DNA of 43,916 nt from a virus: positions 1 to 43,916 of IMG/VR virus record IMGVR_UViG_3300033148_001756; one strand, given 5' to 3'. Below, in pieces: positions 1 to 43,916 of this stretch (position 1 is its first letter; each line of letters opens with the position of its first letter). Both the position numbers and the translations under genes were made by a program. The notes beneath the pieces were generated by a model. That model worked only from the letters and a program-made list of their open reading frames with translations. It searched no databases and was not told where the DNA came from.

Positions 1-114
1 AGCGTAAAATTACTTACTTCTAGTGTAGCTTTGCAGAGTCTTTATAATGAGAGTGATGAAATTAAAGGCGAAACAAGAGTAGGTGGGAGTCTCACTAATC
101 CATCATTATTTAAT
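1..114. repeat. Terminal direct repeat, left copy
   Basis: These 114 bases are identical to 43803-43916. The repeat lies inside the giant fibre gene, and joining the two copies keeps the reading frame. The simplest reading is that the window is a closed circular assembly with an end overlap, not a biological repeat. It does not reveal the true packaged ends (cos, pac or terminal redundancy). Confidence 0.95.
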
Positions 115-1239
115 GGTCTTGAGTCTGGAAGATATAGCACGGCAATCAATGGATTCGGACTCGGGAAACATGCTCTTAGGGATTTAATCAGTGGTGCTCA
201 GAACATTGGGATTGGTAACAATTGCCTACGAGCCGTAACTACAGGAACAAGAAATATTATTATCGGTTATTTGGCTGGTAGTAGACTAGTAAGTGGTGAC
301 GATAATTCTGGTTTTGGAAACAATGTTTTACAGAATAATTACACTGGTAGCCGAAACGTTGCGATGGGTCGAAACTCTGGAAGGAATAACACAGGTTCGG
401 ATAACATCTTTATAGGATATGCATCTGCACAAGATGAAACTGGTAGCAATAAACTTTATATAGCAAATACAGCGACAACAACACCACTTATATATGGCGA
501 GTTCGACAATCAACTACTTACCATAAATGGTGATTTCACTGTATATGATACAGCCACAAATCACACGGTTTGTACTGGTGGATCCGTAACTACTACTTAC
601 AACATTGGAGCAAGATGGATCGGTGCAAGAGACGATGCTACAATAGAATCAGGTAATTTATTATTTTCATTTCGAGGAGCTTCAACTGTAGATACTGGAA
701 CTACTGTAAATTCAGCGGCAGCAATAAGATTTGAAGCTTTTGGTGTACATTCAACTAGTTCGTCTCCCGGCTCAATAGTATTTCAAACAGTTCCTGATGC
801 AAGCACAACACTAACAGATAGAATGGTAATAGACTCTAAGGGGTATATCGGGATAGGAACAAGTGCACCAAAGCTAAATATGCAATTTTCAGATTTTGCT
901 GGAATGTTCTCATTAGGTGCAGGAGTTGGGCAATCCTTCTGGGCTGTAAGAAATATCTATACTGACGATGCAGGAGTAACGTTTAAGAGACTTATCGCTG
1001 ACAATGATGCAAGTGCACTTGGATTTGCAGACAATGGAGATTTTAACTTTTATTCAAATTCTGATGGTAACACAGCAGCAGATAGTTTGATAACATTACA
1101 ACTGAATACAACAATTGCAAAAGATGGCGGTGTATTTATGCACCAATTAAAATCTGGAACAGATCAGTCAGATGCCGGAGCCTCAGCAAATGAGCTTTAC
1201 AGAGACACAGCAGATAATACAATAAAAATTGGAGTGTAG
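1..1239 (+). CDS. Giant fibre protein, C-terminal part (begins at 40782)
   Basis: Position 1 starts a codon of the frame that enters from 43802, so this is the last 412 codons of the same gene, not a gene starting at the TTG at 31. Nucleotides about 166-440 (residues near 1063-1154) encode repeats such as NIGIGNNCL, SGFGNNVLQNN and NIFIGYASA. They resemble the left-handed head repeats of YadA-type trimeric adhesins and are common in phage fibres. They are followed by Gly/Thr/Ser-rich beta segments (IGIGTSAPKLNMQF) and a terminal motif ANELYRDTADNTIKIGV, a usual ending for phage fibre proteins. A homotrimeric beta-rich shaft with a distal receptor-binding end is expected. The stop is four bases before the next start (1243), so the two genes are translationally close. 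Confidence 0.85.
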   Translation, partial: SVKLLTSSVALQSLYNESDEIKGETRVGGSLTNPSLFNGLESGRYSTAINGFGLGKHALRDLISGAQNIGIGNNCLRAVTTGTRNIIIGYLAGSRLVSGDDNSGFGNNVLQNNYTGSRNVAMGRNSGRNNTGSDNIFIGYASAQDETGSNKLYIANTATTTPLIYGEFDNQLLTINGDFTVYDTATNHTVCTGGSVTTTYNIGARWIGARDDATIESGNLLFSFRGASTVDTGTTVNSAAAIRFEAFGVHSTSSSPGSIVFQTVPDASTTLTDRMVIDSKGYIGIGTSAPKLNMQFSDFAGMFSLGAGVGQSFWAVRNIYTDDAGVTFKRLIADNDASALGFADNGDFNFYSNSDGNTAADSLITLQLNTTIAKDGGVFMHQLKSGTDQSDAGASANELYRDTADNTIKIGV

Positions 1240-1242
1240 AAG

Positions 1243-1764
1243 ATGGCGACTAAAAAAGTTAATTTTCCCAGAGGCAAGCGTTCTCAACGACCAGTCGGCA
1301 GCAATCAGATCAATGTCAAAGAAGTTGCTGTAGAGTTCTCAGCTTATACGAATGTAGAAAATACATTTACAGAAGATCAGATATTTACCGGCGATGTTTA
1401 TACAGTATTATGGACTGATTACGGTGCAACTTCTACAATAGTTGGATGGGCTGCAACACCAACAGCTAATATCTTCTACAAAAAAGTAGGAAATTTAGTT
1501 TGTGTTAACTTCTATATAACTGGAACAAGTGATGCAACAACGGCATCTTTTACGTTACCTTACGCGTCGGTTAACAGTACAAACGGGCTTGCTCGAGTTG
1601 CTGCAATGGCTCAAGACAACACATCTTGGCTAACAACGCCTGCGCTAGTTGCACTAGATAACAATAGTGACACCGTTAATATTTATTCGGACTTTTCAGA
1701 AGCGGTTTGGACTGCATCGGGAACTAAAATAATAAATGGTCAATTCTTTTTTGAGGCTCAGTAA
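1243..1764 (+). CDS. Small fibre or decoration protein sharing the giant fibre's N-terminal motif
   Basis: 173 residues. Residues 8-25 read FPRGKRSQRPVGSNQIN and align with the start of the giant fibre; F, P, R, K, P, V, G, N, Q, I and N are conserved. The remainder is Thr/Ser/Ala-rich and predicted beta, with a compact domain around residues 55-173 (VLWTDYGATSTIVGW near its start). GGAG lies just upstream in the last codons of the fibre gene, and the stop overlaps the next ATG (TAATG at 1764). A shared short N-terminus with different distal domains is the usual sign of two appendages attached to the same virion site. I infer a second, shorter fibre or a decoration protein. I do not recognise the distal domain. 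Confidence 0.6.
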   Translation: MATKKVNFPRGKRSQRPVGSNQINVKEVAVEFSAYTNVENTFTEDQIFTGDVYTVLWTDYGATSTIVGWAATPTANIFYKKVGNLVCVNFYITGTSDATTASFTLPYASVNSTNGLARVAAMAQDNTSWLTTPALVALDNNSDTVNIYSDFSEAVWTASGTKIINGQFFFEAQ

Positions 1765-2252
1765 TGGCAATAATTACACTAGCTGAATACAAAACTTACC
1801 CTAGTTATTCAACTACTCAATCAGATTCTATAATCTCAGAACTGATTGACGATGTTGAGGTCGACTTTCTATTTATAAGAAACAAGGAATTTAAAGAATT
1901 CACAGGGAATGTCACGAACGCAAGTGCAATAATAACAAGTGTCAATAACATTTCTGGAATTAAAAAGAATGATTGGATTGAATCAAACAATATAAACGGT
2001 AAAGTTTTAAGCATAAACACAACAGATGCAACAATAACACTTAGTACAAACGCTACAGGAACAGCCGAAGCCGACGAATTGATGGTTTATCCTGCTGGGG
2101 TAAAGAGAGTTGTATCGGAAATGATAAACTTTAAGATAGAAACTTATACAGGGATAACAACCGAATCACTAGAAAATCACAGTGTTGACTATGGCGAGAT
2201 GTCAAAAGGATACCCAAAAAGCATTGTACGGTCTATCAAAAGGTATTTATAA
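1764..2252 (+). CDS. Head-tail connector (gp6/adaptor-like)
   Basis: 162 residues. The N-terminal helical segment (LAEYKTYPSYSTTQSDSIIS, then ELIDDVEVDFLFIRN) and the C-terminal helices (VKRVVSEMINFKIETY, with SIVRSIKRYL at the end) match the pattern of HK97 gp6/SPP1 gp15-type adaptor proteins, which form the ring below the portal. Between them, residues about 48-112 form a Thr/Asn-rich beta insertion (TLSTNATGTAEADELMVYP) not present in the smallest family members. Position supports the call: it is the first of a run of four neck-sized proteins ahead of the tail tube. Start and stop are coupled to both neighbours (ATG overlaps the upstream stop; TAATG at 2252). Confidence 0.7.
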   Translation: MAIITLAEYKTYPSYSTTQSDSIISELIDDVEVDFLFIRNKEFKEFTGNVTNASAIITSVNNISGIKKNDWIESNNINGKVLSINTTDATITLSTNATGTAEADELMVYPAGVKRVVSEMINFKIETYTGITTESLENHSVDYGEMSKGYPKSIVRSIKRYL

Positions 2253-4558: not shown

Positions 4559-4776
4559 TGTCGAGTTTCTCTCAATTTAGTTTATCAAATTGCATGTATA
4601 GGCTAAGTTGGGATCAGTTACTTTATTGGTATCAAATGTCAAATTTCATAGAACATCAAATTGAACCATTAAAAGATAGAATGAACACTACAGTCAGCGG
4701 GGATGCCGAAATAAGTATAGAAGATTTCAGAGAAAATCATACATATACTAAAGATGGATGGGTAAAAAATGGCTGA
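4558..4776 (+). CDS. Tail assembly chaperone, frameshift extension (gpT-like)
   Basis: 72 codons from the overlapping ATG (TAATG at 4556-4560), but most likely expressed as the C-terminal part of a -1 fusion with the preceding gene. The frame is already open upstream to the slip site at 4513-4519. The segment LSWDQLLYWYQMSNFIEHQ is typical of the T part of such proteins, which are short, aromatic and helical. It overlaps the start of the tape measure gene by eight bases. Independent initiation at 4558 is not excluded, since no good Shine-Dalgarno site precedes it. Confidence 0.7.
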   Translation: MSSFSQFSLSNCMYRLSWDQLLYWYQMSNFIEHQIEPLKDRMNTTVSGDAEISIEDFRENHTYTKDGWVKNG

Positions 4777-7132
4777 ACAAGTTGGCGAACTATACTATGA
4801 TTTAACTATAAAAGATGACAAGTTTAACAAGTCACTTAAGACAGCCACAAATAATACTCAAAATTTAGATAAAAAAATAACTAAAACGGGCAAATCTTTA
4901 AAGAAATTTAGCACACTTGCCAAAGTTGGTGCAGTTGTAGCAATCGGTTCTTTCGCCCTTGCAATGAGAAAAGCCGTCAAAGATGCTAGCGACCTTGAAG
5001 AAACTACAAATAAATTCAATGTTGTTTTTTCCGATGTGCAAGATTCTGCAAACGAAATGGCTAAAGTCTTAGTCGATAGCTATGGGGCGAGCAAAGAGGG
5101 TGCACTAGACGCACTTTCTGCAACCGGTGATCTACTTACTGGAATGGGACTACAGCAAGAGAAAGCATTGGAGCTATCGTTCGCAACAGCAAAACTAGCT
5201 GAGGATTTAGCAAGTTTCACCAATATCGAAGGTGGTGCAGAAAGAGTTACAAGAGCATTAACTAGCGCATACACCGGAGAACGTGAAGCATTGAAAAGCG
5301 TTGGAATCGTTATTTCGGAAAAAGCAGTAAAAGACAAGCTTCTGTTAAATGGTCAAGAAAATCTAACCGGTTCCGCATTGCTACAAGCAAAAGCCGAAGC
5401 AACTCTTGCGCTTGCAATTGAACAGTCGGGAAACGCAATTGGAGACAAAGAACGATCTTTTGATTCGTTCGCAAATGTGCAAAAGCGTATAGCAAATAGA
5501 ATGACGGATATTAGTGCGGAGCTAGGCAAGGAATTGTTACCGGAACTTTCGAAACTTGGAGTGCTATTTCTTGAAGTGTCTGGCGACGGTAGTGTGTTTA
5601 TGTCGGCATTAAAAGGCATGCTGAAAATAATCATCAATGTTGCAAAAGGTATTGCAAAAATAATCGGGGCGGTCGATCTTTGGAATAAAAATAGAAATCT
5701 TGACAAGATAACAGAAAAGTTAGAGATATATAGAAAACAACAAATTGCTTTGTTGGTTGGAATGAAGCAATTTGAACAGGCTGGGTTTTTTAGTTCAACA
5801 GTAAAAAAGAAAGGTGAGAAATTTATTCTTTTTCTAGAGAGAGTAATAAAAAATACCAAAAAACACTCAAACGAGCAAAGAAAAGCATTATATTTTTATG
5901 ACAGACTTGTCGCAATTGGGAAAGCAATAAACAGATTAAGTGGTGCGCAAAACGAATCCGTTCAAGAGATGCTTGGTTCTGCCCAAAGTCTTTCTAAATT
6001 AGATCACATCCAAACAAAAGAACAAAAGAAACAACTTGCATTAAGACTAAAAGCAGCAAAACAAAGAGATAGAAATCTAAATACATCTAAAAAACAAGTT
6101 AAATCTGAAAAAGATAGAAATGAAGAAATAAAAAAACGTGCAGCACTTGAAAAAGAAGCGTCAGCATTTGCATTGGGATTTGCAGATCCAATTGCTCAAA
6201 TAGAAGCACAAGAAAAAGCAAAACTTGACAAGCTTGATGAATACAGAAAAAAGAATTTAGACGCTGTTAAAAACGCTCAAGGAATCGAAGAGAAAATTAA
6301 AGCAGAATCCGCAAGAAAACAAATAGAATTGAGAGCACAACAAGCATTCACAACCTTATCAACTGTAGCGAGTCAGTTAGGACAACTAAGTGAATTATAC
6401 GCAATGTCCGCACAAAACGATACAATGAGAATAGATAACGCAACGCAAGTTAAAATGACAGCACTTACAAGTGAATATGATGCCGAAGTTGAAGCCATAA
6501 ATAATAGTGTACTGTCGCAAGAAGACAAAGATAAAAAATTAACAGCTCTTGATGAAAAAAGAGCTAGAGACGAAAAAGCGATTGAAGACAAGGCGTCAAA
6601 GGACAAACGAAAAATAGCATATGATTTAGCCGTTGCGCAAAAGAAATTAAGAATTGCAGAGACATTGCTAATGATTCCGCAGGCATCTATGGCGGCATGG
6701 ACAAGTGCAATGACTTTACCATATCCATACAACCTGATTGCCGGTGGTTCGTCGGTTGCAGCAACAGTAGCACTTGGTGCTGCAAAAGTTGCAATGATAA
6801 GTCAACAGCCATTACCTCAGCTTGCCAACGGTGGTTTTATCGGGGCAACAGCTGGAGGAACTGACGTAACAGTCGGAGAGGGACGATTTGATGAAGCGGT
6901 TATTCCATTGAGTGATGTGTTTTATAATCGACTTGCAAGTGGAATTACAAACGCATTAAGTGGGGTTAGTACAGAAACTGGTGGAACTATTGAACCAGTT
7001 ACAAGCAATAATCAAGCTATAAATTTAAACTTGACAATTGATACAGGAAGCGAAACATTTTATACTAAGATTGAAAACGCAATAGCAAACAGAGAAATTG
7101 TTATTGAACTAGATAATTTGGCGGTACAATAA
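4769..7132 (+). CDS. Tail tape measure protein
   Basis: 787 residues, the longest uninterrupted gene of the tail module. Residues about 75-260 match the conserved tape-measure core (DLEETTNKFNVVFSDVQDSA, TGDLLTGMGLQ, LTSAYTGEREALKSVGIVIS). Long Lys/Glu coiled-coil stretches follow at about 420-600, a hydrophobic Ala-rich segment at about 630-680 (IPQASMAAWTSAMTLPYPYN), and a Gly-rich piece ending in GGFIGATAGGTDVTVGEG. Tape measure proteins set tail length at roughly 0.15 nm per residue, which would suggest a tail of about 120 nm. No lysozyme or peptidase domain is recognisable. Start is ATG 4769, overlapping the chaperone extension. Confidence 0.9.
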   Translation: MAEQVGELYYDLTIKDDKFNKSLKTATNNTQNLDKKITKTGKSLKKFSTLAKVGAVVAIGSFALAMRKAVKDASDLEETTNKFNVVFSDVQDSANEMAKVLVDSYGASKEGALDALSATGDLLTGMGLQQEKALELSFATAKLAEDLASFTNIEGGAERVTRALTSAYTGEREALKSVGIVISEKAVKDKLLLNGQENLTGSALLQAKAEATLALAIEQSGNAIGDKERSFDSFANVQKRIANRMTDISAELGKELLPELSKLGVLFLEVSGDGSVFMSALKGMLKIIINVAKGIAKIIGAVDLWNKNRNLDKITEKLEIYRKQQIALLVGMKQFEQAGFFSSTVKKKGEKFILFLERVIKNTKKHSNEQRKALYFYDRLVAIGKAINRLSGAQNESVQEMLGSAQSLSKLDHIQTKEQKKQLALRLKAAKQRDRNLNTSKKQVKSEKDRNEEIKKRAALEKEASAFALGFADPIAQIEAQEKAKLDKLDEYRKKNLDAVKNAQGIEEKIKAESARKQIELRAQQAFTTLSTVASQLGQLSELYAMSAQNDTMRIDNATQVKMTALTSEYDAEVEAINNSVLSQEDKDKKLTALDEKRARDEKAIEDKASKDKRKIAYDLAVAQKKLRIAETLLMIPQASMAAWTSAMTLPYPYNLIAGGSSVAATVALGAAKVAMISQQPLPQLANGGFIGATAGGTDVTVGEGRFDEAVIPLSDVFYNRLASGITNALSGVSTETGGTIEPVTSNNQAINLNLTIDTGSETFYTKIENAIANREIVIELDNLAVQ

Positions 7133-7887
7133 TGAGAATAATTTACGAAAATAATGTTTTCGATTCAGTAATTTCTACCAACTCAGTAGATCTTAACTAT
7201 CCACTCGAAAACATACAAGACACAAGACTTTCTAGGTTGTATCGCTCAGAAACAAAGACAGGTGTTGAAATTGATCTCTACAACGAAAATATAGACAAAG
7301 AGCTTAATTACATATTTCTACTTAACGACAACTTGACAGCCACGGCAACGGTAACAATCGAAGCTAACACCGTTGACAGTTTCACGAGTCCACCGTTCTC
7401 TAAATCTTTGACATACGAAAATGGTTTTTATTCTGCATATTTTACAGATGCACTAGACACATATAAATACTGGAGACTGACAATTACAGATACTTCAAAC
7501 ACTAACGATTATATCCAAATCGGGATGGTAATTATCGGGGACTATCTTCAATTGCCTGCTATGAAGCAAGACCAGTCATTCCCAACCGTCACAAAAAGCA
7601 GAAAGTCAATATCAAATAGCGGTCAAGTCTATGGTTCAAAACGATACAAATACAAGCCTGTTAAGGCAAACTTTCCTTTTGTATCTAGACAACAGAAAAC
7701 AGATATTGAGTCAATGTTTGATGAAGTAGAAAACTATCAACCGATTTTAATGTTAATGTATGAAAGCGACCTATCAATACTAGCACCGCTTTATTGTACG
7801 CTAGATTCGGACACTTTAAAAATGGATCGAAACGGTACAACTTTATTGCCGTTTAAGTCAAGTTTTGATTTTATACAAGCATTTTAG
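7132..7887 (+). CDS. Distal tail-like protein
   Basis: 251 residues, starting within the tape measure stop (TAATG). Placement directly after the tape measure gene is that of distal tail (Dit) proteins, which join tube to hub. The N-terminal half is beta-rich (NLTATATVTIEANTVDSFTS, YKYWRLTITDTSNTNDYIQ) with a discoidin-like look. The C-terminal half (KPVKANFPFVSRQQKTDIES, LLPFKSSFDFIQAF) resembles minor tail proteins with a gp-type barrel. Function is inferred from order. After this gene the tail operon is interrupted by about 130 non-coding bases and a promoter. Confidence 0.55.
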   Translation: MRIIYENNVFDSVISTNSVDLNYPLENIQDTRLSRLYRSETKTGVEIDLYNENIDKELNYIFLLNDNLTATATVTIEANTVDSFTSPPFSKSLTYENGFYSAYFTDALDTYKYWRLTITDTSNTNDYIQIGMVIIGDYLQLPAMKQDQSFPTVTKSRKSISNSGQVYGSKRYKYKPVKANFPFVSRQQKTDIESMFDEVENYQPILMLMYESDLSILAPLYCTLDSDTLKMDRNGTTLLPFKSSFDFIQAF

Positions 7888-7918: not shown

Positions 7919-7959
7919 TTACAAATAATTAACTTAACTAGAAATAGTGTAGTTTTTAT

Positions 7960-7988
7960 TTGACAAGAGTTATCATCTATTTTAGAAT
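7960..7988 (+). promoter_or_regulatory. Sigma70-type promoter for lipoprotein gene
   Basis: TTGACA (7960-7965), 17-base spacer, TAGAAT (7983-7988). The lipoprotein ATG follows 31 bases after the -10 element, with AAAAGGA upstream of it. An internal promoter in a tail operon marks an independently expressed cargo gene. Confidence 0.7.
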
Positions 7989-8019
7989 AAAGTAAATAAA
8001 ATAAAAGGATGGTAACGCC

Positions 8020-8898
8020 ATGAGAAGATTAGTTTTAAGTTTAGTAATGATTTTTAGTTTAATAGGATGTGAGATGGCTGGAACGCAATATAATTTATCA
8101 ACACCGACAGACCCAAACCCAGAGAATATTATAGAGACAGCAGATAAGGACGCTAAAGGCAAATTAGCACTTAGTTTAACTAATTTCGATAATTCCACAA
8201 TTCCTCAGATTGAGAAAGGTAGCGTTGCCGAGGTATCGGGGACAAGATTTGTATTTGATGCACTCGAAACAATAGTTGGCTCAGCAAGTGACGGGACAGC
8301 TTATATTTACATCGATGGCGCAGATGGTACGGCTAACTGGACGAATACAGCACCAGTGTGGAATGGAGAAAAACAAGGTTATTACCATAGTACAAGTAAT
8401 TATAGATATGTTGCTAGGATTATAAAAGAAGGAACAAATTACAATAACAAAACTATTTTATATTTCCCTGAGAATAGTGGATATAAAACACGAATATCTG
8501 CATATGTTGACAACTTAAGCAATGGCACGAACTCATATAGCCCATTAGTTTACAATAATGAAATATTTGACACTAAGAACGAGTACAATCAATCAACCGG
8601 ATTAGTAACAATAAAAGAAGATGATTATTATGATTTATCTGCATCCTTAACTTATGAAACTGATGACAATTTAATACTTTCAACTGTCTATATCGAATTA
8701 AAGGTAAATAGTTCCGTAATAAGAAATATTCCGGAAGCGTCAAAAGCAAAAGCAGATACAAATCATATAGTATTGGGAGGTATTTTTTATTTTAACAAGG
8801 GGGACATAATAGAAATAAAAATACAGAAATTTAATTCCCCTTATGCTAATTGGATACAAAGCAATCAATGTATATATTTGGCAATACATCAATTATGA
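8020..8898 (+). CDS. Predicted lipoprotein with C1q/TNF-like C-terminal domain
   Basis: 292 residues. The N-terminus is a textbook lipoprotein signal: RR, a hydrophobic run, and lipobox LIGC with the lipidated Cys at 17. A short disordered linker follows (about 20-45). A beta module (about 50-125, with GTAYIYIDGADGTANW and VWNGEKQGYY) is of a kind I associate with phage fibre proteins. The C-terminal 130 residues have the strand order of C1q/TNF-like jelly rolls: YNQSTGLVTIKEDDYYDLSA, then VYIELKVNSSVIRN, ILGG-type strand, GDIIEIKIQ and a final CIYLAIHQL. It has its own promoter and overlaps the next tail gene by four bases (ATGA). Export and lipidation point to action at the host cell surface, for example superinfection exclusion or host-surface modification. 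A virion role is less likely. Lipobox is clear; domain call is moderate; role is inferred. Confidence 0.7.
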   Translation: MRRLVLSLVMIFSLIGCEMAGTQYNLSTPTDPNPENIIETADKDAKGKLALSLTNFDNSTIPQIEKGSVAEVSGTRFVFDALETIVGSASDGTAYIYIDGADGTANWTNTAPVWNGEKQGYYHSTSNYRYVARIIKEGTNYNNKTILYFPENSGYKTRISAYVDNLSNGTNSYSPLVYNNEIFDTKNEYNQSTGLVTIKEDDYYDLSASLTYETDDNLILSTVYIELKVNSSVIRNIPEASKAKADTNHIVLGGIFYFNKGDIIEIKIQKFNSPYANWIQSNQCIYLAIHQL

Positions 8899-10742
8899 CA
8901 TACTCTTTAGAGCTAAATAAAAACGTCAATCATAAGATTGTAATATTTGAATACGACTTGCCCGTTCTCATAACTGAGTTTATCAATTATGAGTCTGGTA
9001 TTTTTTACAAACAATTCTACAAATCAAGAAACATTCCAGAGGGTGCATTATTCCCGCAAGCTTATTATAACGACAATATCGACAATGAAGAGTATACGAA
9101 TATAGGTAGTCTTTCTGTAGACAATACAGACTACACAAAAGTTTTTAACTTAGCAGACCTAAGGACTCAAAACGAATCATTCTATTTTAATTATGCAGAA
9201 CAAAGATTGTATATTCACTTCGACAATATGACTTGGCACTTTGGCGAAACTGTCCGGATGGGTTCTGTTCAAGGTCTAATCGACAACATAGACATGGAAC
9301 GACCAGACGGTGCTTACTACAACGACATATATTATGAGCCACGAATAACTAAGCTACCTACGTTAAATTCAGCAAAAGATCCTTTATTTTGGGGTTTGCT
9401 AAGCTATAAAGGGCTATCTATTAACATAGAAAACGCAGATGGAGCTTACGATAATTTCACAGAGCTTGATGTTTTCGGTCAGTCGGCAAGATGGAAACTT
9501 GGATTTAGTGGAATAGAATATAGTGAATTTGTAACGGTCAAAACAGGATATATCACAAATCCAAAGTGGGACAATTACAGCCTTACTCTTAACATGCAAG
9601 ATCCTAGAGACAGACTATCTGCAGACATTGCAACGAACAAACTAGACAAAGCAACTTATCCAAACTTAAGTGATGACAATGTAGGGGAATCAAAGCCTGT
9701 ATGTTATGGAGTAGTTAGGAGTGCTAAGAGTATTTGTCTTGATGAATTAGCAAGCAGTCCTACAAATAATACGTTTCTGATCGCAGACACTGAATTTAAT
9801 GCTATATCAGCACTGACTAAAGTCTACAGAAAAGTCGATAATGATACACAAGATATAACGGCAAGCGTTGTAAGTTCAGACTTAAGTGAGGGAACGTTTC
9901 TTTTGCCACACTCGACGGTATTTGATGGCGATTCTCTATATGAGATTACAATAGACTTTACCGGTTCAACGATTGAAAACGGTTTTGATGTTATGCAAGA
10001 CATTTATGAAAACTATGGAGAGATTCAATTTCTATCTAGTAATTATAACATCGATGAATGGAACGACGAAAAAACAGGGGCGTCTGATGTAGGAATTTAC
10101 TTAGGCAAGCCGACTACAATCAAAAAAGCATTTGAGGAAATTACAAAATCAATCCAATCATTTTGGCTTATTCAAGATGATGGTTTAATTTCTAATAGAA
10201 TCTTTAACGAAAATAGAACGATAAAAAAACGCATTGAGAACGACGAATGGGAAAACGAGCCTAAATTTTCAAAACCAGAAAAAGAATATCTATCAAGCTC
10301 AACATGTGAATACGACAAAAAGCAAGACGCAAACTCTTATCGTAAATATGAGAATCTTGACTACAGTGTAGAAGCACAAAGAAAATATAAAGTTCAAAAG
10401 TCAAAGTCATTTAAAACATTATTGACAAATAAAACTGACGCTACCAAATTTACGCAAAACATATTAGATCGAAGTGCAAATGTTCAAACTACAGTAAAAA
10501 GAAGAACATTATTAAAGCATATTGATTTGCAAATAATGGATTTTATAGAATGTAGCCATGATAGAAGCGAAAAAGAATTTAATGTTTATGAGGTTATCGG
10601 AAAAGTGGTCAATCTTGAACTAGGTACAATTGATTTGATCATGAAATATGTAAAAGAAGCGGTAGAGATAACAGAACATGTATTAACGCTTGACGCTTTA
10701 TATGGATCTCTGGACACCGAATATTATGAAATATCAAAATAG
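8895..10742 (+). CDS. Tail hub/tail-tip protein
   Basis: 615 residues from ATG 8895, which overlaps the lipoprotein stop as ATGA; an in-frame ATG at 8850 lies inside the lipoprotein gene and has no ribosome site. Placement after the distal tail gene and before the collar-domain fibre fits the hub or tail-associated protein. Visible segments include LDVFGQSARWKLGFSGIEY, VKTGYITNPKWDNYSLTLNM and ALTKVYRKVDNDTQDITASV. The C-terminal part (LLKHIDLQIMDFIECSHDRS, YEVIGKVVNLELGTIDL) has the layout seen in hub domains that contact the distal tail ring. No peptidase or lysozyme motif is apparent. Confidence 0.6.
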   Translation: MTYSLELNKNVNHKIVIFEYDLPVLITEFINYESGIFYKQFYKSRNIPEGALFPQAYYNDNIDNEEYTNIGSLSVDNTDYTKVFNLADLRTQNESFYFNYAEQRLYIHFDNMTWHFGETVRMGSVQGLIDNIDMERPDGAYYNDIYYEPRITKLPTLNSAKDPLFWGLLSYKGLSINIENADGAYDNFTELDVFGQSARWKLGFSGIEYSEFVTVKTGYITNPKWDNYSLTLNMQDPRDRLSADIATNKLDKATYPNLSDDNVGESKPVCYGVVRSAKSICLDELASSPTNNTFLIADTEFNAISALTKVYRKVDNDTQDITASVVSSDLSEGTFLLPHSTVFDGDSLYEITIDFTGSTIENGFDVMQDIYENYGEIQFLSSNYNIDEWNDEKTGASDVGIYLGKPTTIKKAFEEITKSIQSFWLIQDDGLISNRIFNENRTIKKRIENDEWENEPKFSKPEKEYLSSSTCEYDKKQDANSYRKYENLDYSVEAQRKYKVQKSKSFKTLLTNKTDATKFTQNILDRSANVQTTVKRRTLLKHIDLQIMDFIECSHDRSEKEFNVYEVIGKVVNLELGTIDLIMKYVKEAVEITEHVLTLDALYGSLDTEYYEISK

Positions 10743-10753
10743 AAGAGGATTAA

Positions 10754-11677
10754 ATGGCAACAACTAAAAAAAACATATCAGAAATAGACTTAACAAAAAC
10801 TACACTGGATGGTACCGAATGGCTGGTGGGTAGGGATCAGTTAGGGAATGATTTTAAGATATCAACTGATAATTTCTCTAGTTCGCTAAGTGCTTTTCCA
10901 GTTGGCTCTGCAATTCCATTTATGGGAATAACGATTCCAGCAAATTACTTATTAGGAGACGGTTCAAGTTTAAATAGAACAACTTATGCACCTTTATTTG
11001 CAGCAACAACAAAAGAAATAGGAACGTTTACAGTAACGATTGCAACAGATGCAGTATTTACATTGTCGACACACGGATTATCTACAGGCGATAATATAGA
11101 ATTGACCACAGATGGAACTTTGCCTACTGGGCTTTCAGAATACATAAACTACTTCATCGACAAAATAGACACGGACACTTTTTATTTATGCCCAACAAGA
11201 GCAGATGCAATAGCGAGTACAAATAGAATAGATACAAGTGCAACTCAATCTGAAGTTCATACGTTAAGATATACGCCTTATGGAGTGAATAGCTCAAGTG
11301 AATTTTTAGTTGTAGATTTAAGAGGTGCTGGAATTATTGGTGTCGGTGAAAACGGTCAATATTTGATGGCTGACGGCAATCCTTATACGGGGAATCGGTT
11401 GGGTATTGGTGAATTGGATGCTATGCAAGGATGGCAACTAGGAGCGAGTGCAGATGATACAGGAGCAAGGGACTATTACGGGAAGGCTGGACTTCGAGAT
11501 TATTACAATGGGGCTGTTGTATCAGCTGGATCGGCAGAAATGCGAGTAGATACAACAGCACAGGGGGGCTCTAATATGCTAAAAGCCGTGAATGACGGAA
11601 CTCGCGGGGACATAAGAAGTAACTTCAAGACAACACAGTTCAATCTACCATCTCAATTAATAATTAAATACAAATAG
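10754..11677 (+). CDS. Phage tail collar-domain fibre protein
   Basis: 307 residues; AGAGGA precedes the ATG. Residues about 50-75 read PVGSAIPFMGITIPANYLLG DGS, a collar-domain signature (V G .I .P ...... P .... L. .G), continuing LNRTTYAPLFA. A beta insertion (about 85-175) is followed by FLVVDLRGAGIIGVG, the usual second part of the collar domain ('f.lPDlRG.f..g'). The domain is thus split by an insert. The end is Gly/Asn-rich (LDAMQGWQLGASADDTGARD). It probably forms the receptor-binding tail-tip fibre, working with the fibre-assembly-like protein encoded next. Confidence 0.75.
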   Translation: MATTKKNISEIDLTKTTLDGTEWLVGRDQLGNDFKISTDNFSSSLSAFPVGSAIPFMGITIPANYLLGDGSSLNRTTYAPLFAATTKEIGTFTVTIATDAVFTLSTHGLSTGDNIELTTDGTLPTGLSEYINYFIDKIDTDTFYLCPTRADAIASTNRIDTSATQSEVHTLRYTPYGVNSSSEFLVVDLRGAGIIGVGENGQYLMADGNPYTGNRLGIGELDAMQGWQLGASADDTGARDYYGKAGLRDYYNGAVVSAGSAEMRVDTTAQGGSNMLKAVNDGTRGDIRSNFKTTQFNLPSQLIIKYK

Positions 11678-40535: not shown

Positions 40536-40557
40536 GGGGGTGTAAAAGCCCCCTTTT
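40536..40557 (+). terminator. Terminator after capsid gene
   Basis: GGGGGT (40536-40541) pairs with GCCCCC (40548-40553), loop of six, then TTTTATTT. Partial read-through into the fibre gene is likely, since no new promoter is evident downstream. Confidence 0.75.
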
Positions 40558-40584: not shown

Positions 40585-40779
40585 ATGTTTAAAAAGAAAA
40601 AAGATTCTGATGTTGTCGTTGAAACAATCATAGACACTACAAAAAATAAAAAGAAAATAAAAGAGATAATCTTTGAGGGTTCTGGCTGGTGTGAAGAGTT
40701 GCAAACATCTTACCGAAAAGGAATATATACACCAAAGACATTAAAAGAATACAATATCCTAAAAAAATACGGTAAATAA
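40585..40779 (+). CDS. Small protein between capsid and fibre genes
   Basis: 64 residues; AAAGGA upstream. Strongly basic (FKKKKDSDVVVETIIDTTKN KKKIKEI), with a compact second half (GSGWCEELQTSYRKGIYTP) ending LKEYNILKKYGK. Not recognised. Its place suggests a capsid-linked or head-fibre-linked role. Confidence 0.6.
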   Translation: MFKKKKDSDVVVETIIDTTKNKKKIKEIIFEGSGWCEELQTSYRKGIYTPKTLKEYNILKKYGK

Positions 40780-40781
40780 AT

Positions 40782-43700
40782 ATGCCTCCTATTAAATTTC
40801 CAAGAGCGAAGCAAAGACTTAAACCAGTTGGAACTAATCAAATAAACAATCGAGGTGGTGGTGCTGGTTCTGACTCTACAGCAATCCACACAAATATCTC
40901 CTCTGAAATAATCGGAATTCCAGAAAAGACAAACCCTGTAGATGCTGATTTAATAGTTATAGAAGACAGCGAAAATGCTAATAATAAAAAAAGAGCAGAA
41001 ATTGGAAATCTTCCCGGAATGAAAGCAGCAGAGTGGGGACTTGTTACAGGAATTTTATCAGATCAAACAGATTTAGATGACAGATTTAATATAATAGAGT
41101 CAAGGACGGAATACTATGAGCTATTCGAAAATATCACAAGCGGAACAACAGGAACAATCACAAAGCCAGTCGACTCGACAATCCTCCTTAACAGATACAG
41201 CGACGGAAAAGATTGTGTCATCGTCAAAGTCGACTCTAACAATAGACCTACTGAAAACATCGCTAGAGAATCAGACGGAACTATTATCACGGCAACGTTC
41301 GACACGGCTGGCGATTATGTTCTTAGTGGCACTGCAAGTGCCTATCCTGTCAGTCTTGTTTATCAAATATCTATTGCCGCTGTTAACTCGGATAATGTAA
41401 ATATAAATCAAATTGTAAATAAATTAGAATTACACGACGCAAGTGAAATAAGTGTTGATGCAAGCGGTTTTGGCGGTACATTAAGCACAGCCGATAATGA
41501 TGTACAAAAAGCGTTATCTACTCTTAATGATACGGTTGCATTCGAACAATCAACTGGATTGGTTAAAGGCGGTGTCATAAGTGTCAATGCAACAACTACA
41601 CTTATTGATATAACAGCAGGATCAGGACAAATAGTTGATACCACAACCGATCCAGACAACCCAGTCGTCACACCTATTGCATGGATAGCAAAAACAGGTT
41701 ATAATCTTACTACTACTGCTGGAGCTGGAGACGTTGTTGCTATTTTCCTTTCATTGGATTCTAACGGCGATGTCATAGAACGGTCTGAATTACCATCTGC
41801 AACAGAAAGAAGAAATACAATTGACTTAGGATTAGTTGCAAGAGATGATTCAAATGTTGTGGTTGTTGTTGCAAACACACCTACAAATATAATACACAAT
41901 CCTACAAGTTTAATGCAAGACTTTTTTGAAAACTGGGGGGCATTCAGTATTTCTGGAAATGAGATTGCACCAAACGCAACTGATTTGCAGATTAAAAAAG
42001 AAGCTGGTACATTATTCAGAAGTGGTGGTAATTTCAGAACAGACGGGAAAAACCCGAATGTTGTAATTTCAGCAGCGCAAGAACCAGTCAATCCATTTAA
42101 CTATAAACTTTCAGATGGAACAGACGTAACACTTTTGGCGTCCGCTATTGATCCAGATTATTATGACAGTGGGGCGAGTACTAAAACAGCCGTTCCAACT
42201 GGTAAATTCACCATACAAAGAATTGCAATGTTTTCTTCAAATATTTTAGAGATCATGTATGGTCAAGAATTATTTAATTTATTATCTGAAGCCAAAGCAG
42301 CATTACCAACAGTAGACTTTATTGTTCCAGCTGATTCAAAAGAAGCAATCCCATTTTCATATTTAATTGTAAAACAAGGATGTACAGATTTAACCGACGA
42401 TACTTGTGCAGAATTTTTTAAAGTCGATGCAAGAGGAGAAATTGGTGGTATTGGTTATCAGCAGTTAAATAGTGCAGGCATGGTATATGACCCCGGCTTA
42501 ACAGATAATGTAAATGGATCAATTGATGTTGGCGACGGTGTTGTAAACTTATTTCAAACAAGCGATTTTTCAGGAGATATGAAACAATATTCACTAGTTG
42601 GGTTGGACGATCAATTATTGACCAATAACGACACTAACTATATCATAGCAGATTACAACAGCGGATCACCTATCTTTAGAGTTACACTAGATGTACTTGA
42701 AGTCAATGAATCTGACGTTGTTCCCGTGTATACAATATATAGAGAAGATGACGAATTGCACACAGTTTCATGGGGTACCGTTGGAACTGGACTAGTAAAT
42801 AAACTTCATGCTAGAGTAGTAAAAACAGACCGATTTGCACATGAAAGTGGTTTAGCACTTGGCGAAGAAGCGACAAGAGAGATTACGACAACAGCTGGAG
42901 TTATATGGATTGGTGGGACTAGAACAATTCTACCAGCAGCAAATAGTGGAACAGATGAAACAGAATTCTGGTATCATGTTTCTGGCGTGTGGACTAGTTC
43001 GTCGGTCACAACTTACAATAATCAACAATACGACGACGGAACCGATCTACAGGACACTGGGAACGGTCGTTTTGTAGTCAATTGGATTTATCAAGGTGCT
43101 GAATCTGGCGATGCCCATTTATATTATGTGCTAGGTAGCGATAACTATACTTTATTAGAAGCACAAGCATCACCAGCACCATCTGATTTGCCACAAGTTA
43201 TCTCGAGTCACGCTGTATTGGTAGGACGTATTATCGTTGAAGAAGATGGAACAACAGCAACTCAGATTGACTCAGCTTTTACCACACAGTTTGCAGCGTC
43301 ACCAGTTACAGACCATGCTAATCTTAGTGGATTGCAAGGTGGAACAGCTGGAGAATATTATCATATTACGAGTGCGCAACATGGCAATATGCCTCCATTG
43401 GATTCGGCTACTAATACAGATGGTGATTTTAACATTACGGGTTCGAACACGGCACCAACACAGGGAGCCGAGCAAGTAACAAACGGAGACTTCACTACCG
43501 ACTTAACGGGCTGGACAAATGGTGGCAATTGGGCGCAAAGTGCAGGTACAGCGCTACATACAGCAGGAAGTGTGGCTACATTAAGCCAAGATGTTACCGT
43601 TGTAGCTACTAACGCATATCTTATAGCATTTGACGTTATAGGTAGAACAGCGGGTACAGTTAGAATGAGTGTGGGTGGAGCGCTTGATACATTCTTTATC

Positions 43701-43916
43701 GATCAAGATATCACAACGTATACCAAAGTTCTTTATGCTACCACAACAGGGGCTTTGACTTTTGAACCAACAACAGATTTTGATGGTGCATTAGACAATG
43801 TAAGCGTAAAATTACTTACTTCTAGTGTAGCTTTGCAGAGTCTTTATAATGAGAGTGATGAAATTAAAGGCGAAACAAGAGTAGGTGGGAGTCTCACTAA
43901 TCCATCATTATTTAAT
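40782..43916 (+). CDS. Giant fibre protein, N-terminal part (continues at 1-1239)
   Basis: The frame opens at ATG 40782 and is still open at the window end. Across the circular junction it continues in frame to the stop at 1239, giving about 1,419 residues. Residues 4-23 carry the anchor-like motif FPRAKQRLKPVGTNQIN, which recurs in the next gene (1243-1764). Around residues 50-75 is a segment typical of phage fibres (VDADLIVIEDSENANNKKR). Near residue 844 is the fibre motif ANLSGLQGGTAGEYYH. Residues about 895-1010 begin VTNGDFTTDLTGW and look like a beta-sandwich carbohydrate-binding module. The gene follows the major capsid gene and a 64-residue protein and precedes the head-tail connectors. 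That is an unusual place for a tail fibre and suggests a head fibre. Receptor or glycan binding is inferred from family resemblance. The fibre type is secure; the capsid location is a hypothesis. Confidence 0.85.
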   Translation, partial: MPPIKFPRAKQRLKPVGTNQINNRGGGAGSDSTAIHTNISSEIIGIPEKTNPVDADLIVIEDSENANNKKRAEIGNLPGMKAAEWGLVTGILSDQTDLDDRFNIIESRTEYYELFENITSGTTGTITKPVDSTILLNRYSDGKDCVIVKVDSNNRPTENIARESDGTIITATFDTAGDYVLSGTASAYPVSLVYQISIAAVNSDNVNINQIVNKLELHDASEISVDASGFGGTLSTADNDVQKALSTLNDTVAFEQSTGLVKGGVISVNATTTLIDITAGSGQIVDTTTDPDNPVVTPIAWIAKTGYNLTTTAGAGDVVAIFLSLDSNGDVIERSELPSATERRNTIDLGLVARDDSNVVVVVANTPTNIIHNPTSLMQDFFENWGAFSISGNEIAPNATDLQIKKEAGTLFRSGGNFRTDGKNPNVVISAAQEPVNPFNYKLSDGTDVTLLASAIDPDYYDSGASTKTAVPTGKFTIQRIAMFSSNILEIMYGQELFNLLSEAKAALPTVDFIVPADSKEAIPFSYLIVKQGCTDLTDDTCAEFFKVDARGEIGGIGYQQLNSAGMVYDPGLTDNVNGSIDVGDGVVNLFQTSDFSGDMKQYSLVGLDDQLLTNNDTNYIIADYNSGSPIFRVTLDVLEVNESDVVPVYTIYREDDELHTVSWGTVGTGLVNKLHARVVKTDRFAHESGLALGEEATREITTTAGVIWIGGTRTILPAANSGTDETEFWYHVSGVWTSSSVTTYNNQQYDDGTDLQDTGNGRFVVNWIYQGAESGDAHLYYVLGSDNYTLLEAQASPAPSDLPQVISSHAVLVGRIIVEEDGTTATQIDSAFTTQFAASPVTDHANLSGLQGGTAGEYYHITSAQHGNMPPLDSATNTDGDFNITGSNTAPTQGAEQVTNGDFTTDLTGWTNGGNWAQSAGTALHTAGSVATLSQDVTVVATNAYLIAFDVIGRTAGTVRMSVGGALDTFFIDQDITTYTKVLYATTTGALTFEPTTDFDGALDNVSVKLLTSSVALQSLYNESDEIKGETRVGGSLTNPSLFN
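43803..43916. repeat. Terminal direct repeat, right copy
   Basis: Second copy of 1-114, base for base. The non-redundant genome is therefore 1-43802. Confidence 0.95.

Follow-up and report, generated by a model that had tools for sequence, protein, structure and literature searches.

A gene for a giant fibre lies in the head module of the virus record IMGVR_UViG_3300033148_001756, and this raises the question of where on the virion such a fibre is attached. The window analysed here is the whole record of 43,916 nucleotides, the first 114 bases of which are identical to the last 114 (1-114 repeat 43803-43916). The fibre ORF from 40782 runs into the right end of the window; its frame is open across the join and stop-free to 1239. 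The joined gene (40782-43916 plus 115-1239) encodes 1,419 residues, of which positions 40782-43916 cover residues 1-1045 only, the remainder being encoded by 115-1239. The 114-base overlap might be regarded as an assembly repeat, in which case the window ends would come from different molecules and the fibre would be shorter or chimaeric. Such an artefact is very improbable, as the overlap is exact, the frame runs uninterrupted through both sides over 1,420 codons and a normal head-tail module is completed by the gene that follows. The preliminary description had placed a fibre of about 1,419 residues between the major capsid protein (MCP) gene and the head-tail connector genes, which was confirmed by the join, by the PF17236 match of the MCP and by the phrog matches of the adaptor. 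It had also reported a separate collar-domain fibre at 10754, following the tape measure, and the profile matches agree with this for both genes. Table 1 summarizes the features discussed.

Table 1. Features around the giant fibre gene in the circularly joined virus record
Feature	Coordinates	Strand	Basis or matches
Giant fibre gene, second part across the join, residues 1008-1419	1..1239	+	identical 114-base ends, open frame
YadA-head-like repeat region	118..444	+	phrog_6002 E=7e-15; phrog_4636 (tail spike) E=5e-10; repeats visible in sequence
Distal module related to Bdellovibrio mosaic adhesive trimer fibre Bd1334 (PDB 8OML)	643..888	+	phmmer E=3.4e-7
Short partner fibre candidate, 173 aa: anchor, linker, probably all-beta C-terminal part	1243..1764	+	shared anchor; low-confidence model
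Anchor peptide, 173-aa protein residues 6-24, VNFPRGKRSQRPVGSNQIN	1258..1314	+	common to the giant fibre
Head-tail adaptor-like connector gene	1764..2252	+	phrog_1236 'head protein' E=4e-6; phrog_1161 'head-tail adaptor' E=7e-5
Separate tail fibre, Phage Tail Collar domain, after the tape measure	10754..11677	+	PF07484 E=2.3e-5
MCP, SU10_MCP family, 389 aa	39352..40521	+	PF17236 E=1.9e-15, above curated cut-off
Terminator-like hairpin, GGGGGTGTAAAAGCCCCC then TTTTATTT	40536..40553	+	15 bases past the capsid stop codon; consensus scan, sequence
Small basic ORF, 64 aa, between MCP and fibre genes	40585..40779	+	ORF
Giant fibre gene, first part, residues 1-1045	40782..43916	+	open frame, joined protein 1,419 aa
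Anchor peptide, giant fibre residues 4-22, IKFPRAKQRLKPVGTNQIN	40791..40847	+	common to the 173-aa protein only
Body module A, residues ~254-560	41541..42461	+	matches fibres of Flavobacterium phage 11b, Stenotrophomonas phage DLP6 and Streptomyces phages
Body module B, residues ~563-945	42468..43616	+	matches ctfne034, Rhodobacteraceae phage LS06-2018-MD05, huge phages and about 80 IMG/VR contigs

The genes around the fibre are ordered MCP - 64 aa - fibre - 173 aa - adaptor. The last four are tightly coupled, by a 2-base gap, a 3-base gap and then a stop/start overlap in which the start of the adaptor-like gene overlaps the stop codon of the 173-aa gene (TAATG). The MCP also matches phrog_1328, a major head protein (E=4e-6), and its gene is preceded by an ORF in the scaffold position, a minor head protein and an SPP1-type portal. 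The product of the 64-aa ORF carries a net charge of +7 and found no family match in profile searches. On the 3' side of the adaptor-like gene follow small ORFs, a weak major tail protein match and then the tape measure (4769-7132; phrog_1538 E=4e-8). The giant fibre gene is therefore located in the head module beside the MCP gene, as is usual but not universal for head fibres; it precedes the adaptor gene, and neither a place in the tail module nor a known tail-attachment N-terminus was found for it. Gene position is circumstantial as evidence for the attachment site. The crAss001 gene order shows that a head-module position is not obligatory for head-fibre genes; in that phage the gp29 gene, unlike the fibre gene here, is found three genes before the MCP gene.

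In the tail module of the same record, a gene at 8020-8898, between 7132-7887 (Dit position) and 8850-10742 (Tal position), encodes a protein that combines a lipoprotein-type signal (MRRLVLSLVMIFSLIGC) with a C-terminal half of weak C1q/tail-fibre likeness (PF00386 E=0.095; phrog_22682 tail fibre E=5e-5). This protein is possibly a fibre mimic that is exported and anchored in the membrane, for example as a superinfection-exclusion lipoprotein.

The N-terminus of the giant fibre recurs in its 173-aa neighbour. The two anchor peptides are identical at 11 of 19 positions, with the pattern FPRxKxxx[K/R]PVGxNQIN, and they score 65, whereas the next of 3,403 N-terminal comparisons in the window scores 51 and the maximum in 5,000 shuffles is 44 (BLASTP E=2e-5). 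Six of the 11 identical residues are encoded by different codons, indicating that the similarity is kept at the protein level and is not a fresh DNA copy. Outside the anchor, no relation between the two proteins was detectable. Residues 1-21 of the fibre had no family match and no phage match other than the neighbouring protein, and the motif found no in-frame N-terminal match at any other ORF start in IMG/VR and GTDB genomes when searched as exact residues with fixed spacing, which diverged anchors would escape. The 173-aa protein had no database homologue in Pfam, PHROGs, IMG/VR and other searches, and a structure model made without alignment reached a mean pLDDT of 43. In addition, the collar fibre lacks the anchor and shows no significant match to the giant fibre. 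As neighbouring genes whose products share an N-terminal segment and have unrelated remainders, the giant fibre and the 173-aa protein have the appearance of a long and a short fibre that dock at one and the same site, which is the simplest reading of their sequences.

Both proteins carry a net charge of about +6 in their first 25 residues, against acidic values for the rest of the giant fibre (-90) and for the MCP (-17). The portal, adaptor and tail proteins are likewise acidic, so that charge does not single out the capsid.

The hairpin directly after the MCP stop codon probably lowers the expression of everything downstream, so that the MCP is probably made in larger amounts than the products that follow it, namely the 64-aa protein, the giant fibre, its 173-aa neighbour and the connectors. 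It puts the fibre on the connector side (connector/tail) of the transcription unit and suggests a low copy number. The preliminary description had likened the gene to the decoration or head-fibre genes that often follow a capsid gene. The hairpin argues against a high-copy decoration protein: a fibre present in few copies, at vertices, portal-proximal hexamers or the neck, agrees better with it than a protein that decorates the capsid several hundred times. Phage Andhra bears head fibres on no hexamers other than the five that surround the portal (PMC9710869). A fibre or whisker of the neck, with the pair docked on the portal-vertex/adaptor complex in six or twelve copies and in a position like that of T4 fibritin, has to be considered here as well. 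The pair is encoded directly upstream of the head-tail adaptor gene and tightly coupled to it, and the terminator-like site separates it from the capsid gene, so that its expression probably matches that of the low-copy connector proteins. Nevertheless, profile searches returned no match to fibritin or any other neck family, and the fibre gene is as near to the capsid gene as to the adaptor gene, a position which cannot separate the two sites. Attachment to the neck is considered quite improbable.

Beyond its anchor, the giant fibre resembles many phage fibres over residues ~244-980. Modules A and B occur in reversed order in the DLP6 fibre, and this opposite order may be taken as a sign of module shuffling. 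The distal module is homologous to Bd1334, a mosaic adhesive trimer protein of Bdellovibrio (PMC10769870); those proteins, however, are bacterial surface adhesins and not virion proteins. The giant fibre protein is long and modular, and is probably a trimeric virion fibre. Its best body homologue, in L108, is matched at E=4e-279 over residues 244-980, with 70% identity in module B, and belongs to a sheathed phage, where its gene lies between those of the tail tube and the tape measure. The homologous gene of L109 is flanked by baseplate genes, and that of 11b gp46 lies among late tail genes. Among the homologues whose gene order was checked (a minority of 80 loci), most belong to tail or baseplate modules and have other N-termini. 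The fibres of L112 and L175 are encoded a few genes 3' of the MCP gene, with intervening genes and again with other N-termini; L175 matches the first 110 residues of the giant fibre at E=4e-15, yet its own N-terminus differs. Spacer residues ~22-77 are common to a huge phage. Residues 1-21, by comparison, were matched by none of these homologues. Thus related phages do present this gene as a tail fibre, an outcome that the preliminary description had set against attachment to the capsid, but they do so for the body modules only (as in L108), with a different N-terminus. Since the body modules occur in fibres with tail or baseplate gene positions and other N-termini, body similarity cannot locate the attachment, and it is the N-terminus that decides. 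Three of the homologous-body fibres (L109 8624-11974, L140 9743-11839 and L181 7521-10196) have signal-peptide-like N-termini (e.g. MKKLFISLILLIGVYLNYASA), which points to exported adhesins or to wrong start codons; that of L109 is nevertheless encoded among baseplate genes.

Neighbouring fibre genes with common N-termini have precedents among these phages. Phage 11b encodes such a pair in genes 45/46 (183 and 930 aa) and ctfne034 another (UOF77672/UOF77673; 733 and 179 aa), each with a long and a short neighbour, a shared N-terminal attachment region and body modules homologous to those of the giant fibre. Further cases with homologous bodies were found in L131/L132, L136/L138 and L143. The shared N-terminal regions of 11b and ctfne034 are unrelated to the anchor described here, and their genes are not placed directly between MCP and adaptor. 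Therefore the long/short design with a shared N-terminus is already known, and this pair stands apart by its place directly between the capsid and adaptor genes. As a candidate for the same layout, ctfne034 (MW202484), which has an SU10-type MCP, was rejected, as its fibre pair comes after other post-MCP genes and its N-terminus differs. In the deposited annotation of that phage (MW202484.1), a minus-strand hypothetical gene at 7955-9004 overlies an apparent plus-strand SU10-type MCP gene (PF17236 E=8.5e-39 at 8024-9067). Fibre neighbours with shared N-termini in this and other loci (L001, L003, L131, L132, L136, L138 and L143) could serve to map attachment modules.

Relatives of the phage backbone were also compared. 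Single-protein queries with the MCP, the 173-aa protein and the terminase gave no matches in IMG/VR. An alignment search with the terminase found 80 loci, among which the portal is shared only by L032, L070 and, partly, L041, and the MCP by none. A search of 98 records for SU10_MCP found four carriers, and in none of these does a fibre adjoin the MCP gene. Likewise, terminase relatives in which the interval between MCP and connector could be read (L085, L107 and the listing of large ORFs) contain no fibre-sized gene there.

These comparisons bear on whether the pair is an ordinary side tail fibre, or a tail-tip pair, whose genes have moved beside the capsid gene and whose shared N-terminus docks on the tail or baseplate. 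Modules are exchanged freely among phage fibres. In other phages, A and B are found in fibres encoded among tail or baseplate genes (11b gp46, L108 and L109), and the two-fibre set of 11b with its shared N-termini lies among late tail genes. However, the readable terminase relatives lack a fibre-sized gene between MCP and connector, the anchor was found on no tail fibre, and the tail fibre of this phage itself does not carry it. Docking on the tail is regarded as unlikely.

Attachment of the pair to the capsid is the best-supported reading, and on the sequence evidence it is held with moderate confidence. The head, meaning the capsid shell or neck, is favoured by the gene order, by the basic anchor and by the presence of an independent collar fibre behind the tape measure. 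For the capsid, support comes from the tightly coupled order of MCP, 64-aa, fibre, 173-aa and adaptor genes, from a tail that has its own collar fibre without the anchor, from the terminase relatives without a fibre-sized gene in readable MCP-connector intervals, and from the charge complementarity between basic anchor and acidic MCP, as in T5 pb10. The positively charged N-terminal domain of pb10 docks on the negatively charged centres of hexamers (PMC5292684). Similarly, residues 1-38 of gp21 and 1-58 of gp29 fasten these two head fibres to the crAss001 capsid (PMC10172136). Several points reduce certainty. The body homologues of checked gene order belong mostly to tail or baseplate modules, and the hairpin assigns the fibre to the connector/tail side of transcription. 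Short N-terminal anchors also fix tail fibres, such as crAss001 gp22, held by residues 1-26 (PMC10172136); the shared-N-terminus pair of 11b is located among late tail genes; and the anchor has no homologue in anything searched, so that no phage of known structure tests the head reading. Of the capsid-attached fibre proposed by the preliminary description, what stands is a long modular fibre in the head module, a tail with its own fibre, and an N-terminus unlike known tail-attachment domains and shared only with the 173-aa neighbour, whereas the capsid shell is not told apart from the neck or tail.

The gene of phi29 gp8.5 belongs to the head set and adjoins the capsid gene, and the giant fibre gene resembles it in this. 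The gp8.5 protein is a trimer that forms a fibre on the outside of the capsid and takes part in attachment to the cell (PMC6542822, PMC7602432). It differs in having 280 aa and a two-beta-barrel base of about 110 residues, compared with 1,419 aa and an anchor peptide of ~22 residues here, and no gp8.5-type base or stem was matched by the fibre in Pfam, PHROGs, NCBIfam or PDB sequences. In crAss001, gp21 (HFT) and gp29 (HFD) are likewise two different fibres that sit in hexon pockets by short N-terminal segments (PMC10172136). Nevertheless, they are about 100-120 aa long and bind different hexon environments, as trimer and dimer, whereas here one of the proteins is giant and a single peptide is common to both. 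Agrobacterium phage 7-7-1 carries long flexible fibres at its capsid vertices for first contact (PMC12796354); their protein is not identified in structure.

On this reading, the long and the short fibre would plug into a single repeated site by means of their common short basic N-terminal peptide; the site would most likely be on the head, at capsid capsomers or vertices, rather than at the tail tip. The long fibre would extend its adhesive distal domains and may act as a reversible adhesin that keeps the virion close to the cell or to a polymer on its surface, before the fibre and hub proteins of the tail tip would commit it to injection. A part for head fibres in first contact has been described for phage 7-7-1 (PMC12796354) and proposed for the turrets of HFTV1 (PMC12494034).

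Head fibres as such are known, and a giant modular pair of long and short fibres would be a new variant among them if borne on the head. It is tentatively suggested, with chances slightly short of even, that this phage has a head-borne dual-fibre system, in which a giant mosaic adhesin of tail-fibre modules (1,419 aa per chain) and a short partner use the same capsid site via a basic anchor not seen elsewhere, so that bodies of tail fibres would serve the head as exchangeable fibres. Should the pair be bound to the head, it would show that a change in a plug of ~22 residues is enough for phages to bring whole tail-fibre bodies onto the capsid. The anchor peptide would then be a compact tag for capsid display. 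If the reading is true, it would also provide a sequence rule for finding head fibres in uncultured phages, where body similarity by itself now leads to such proteins being labelled tail fibres: the rule would be to look beside the capsid gene for a pair of adjacent genes that encode a common N-terminal peptide.
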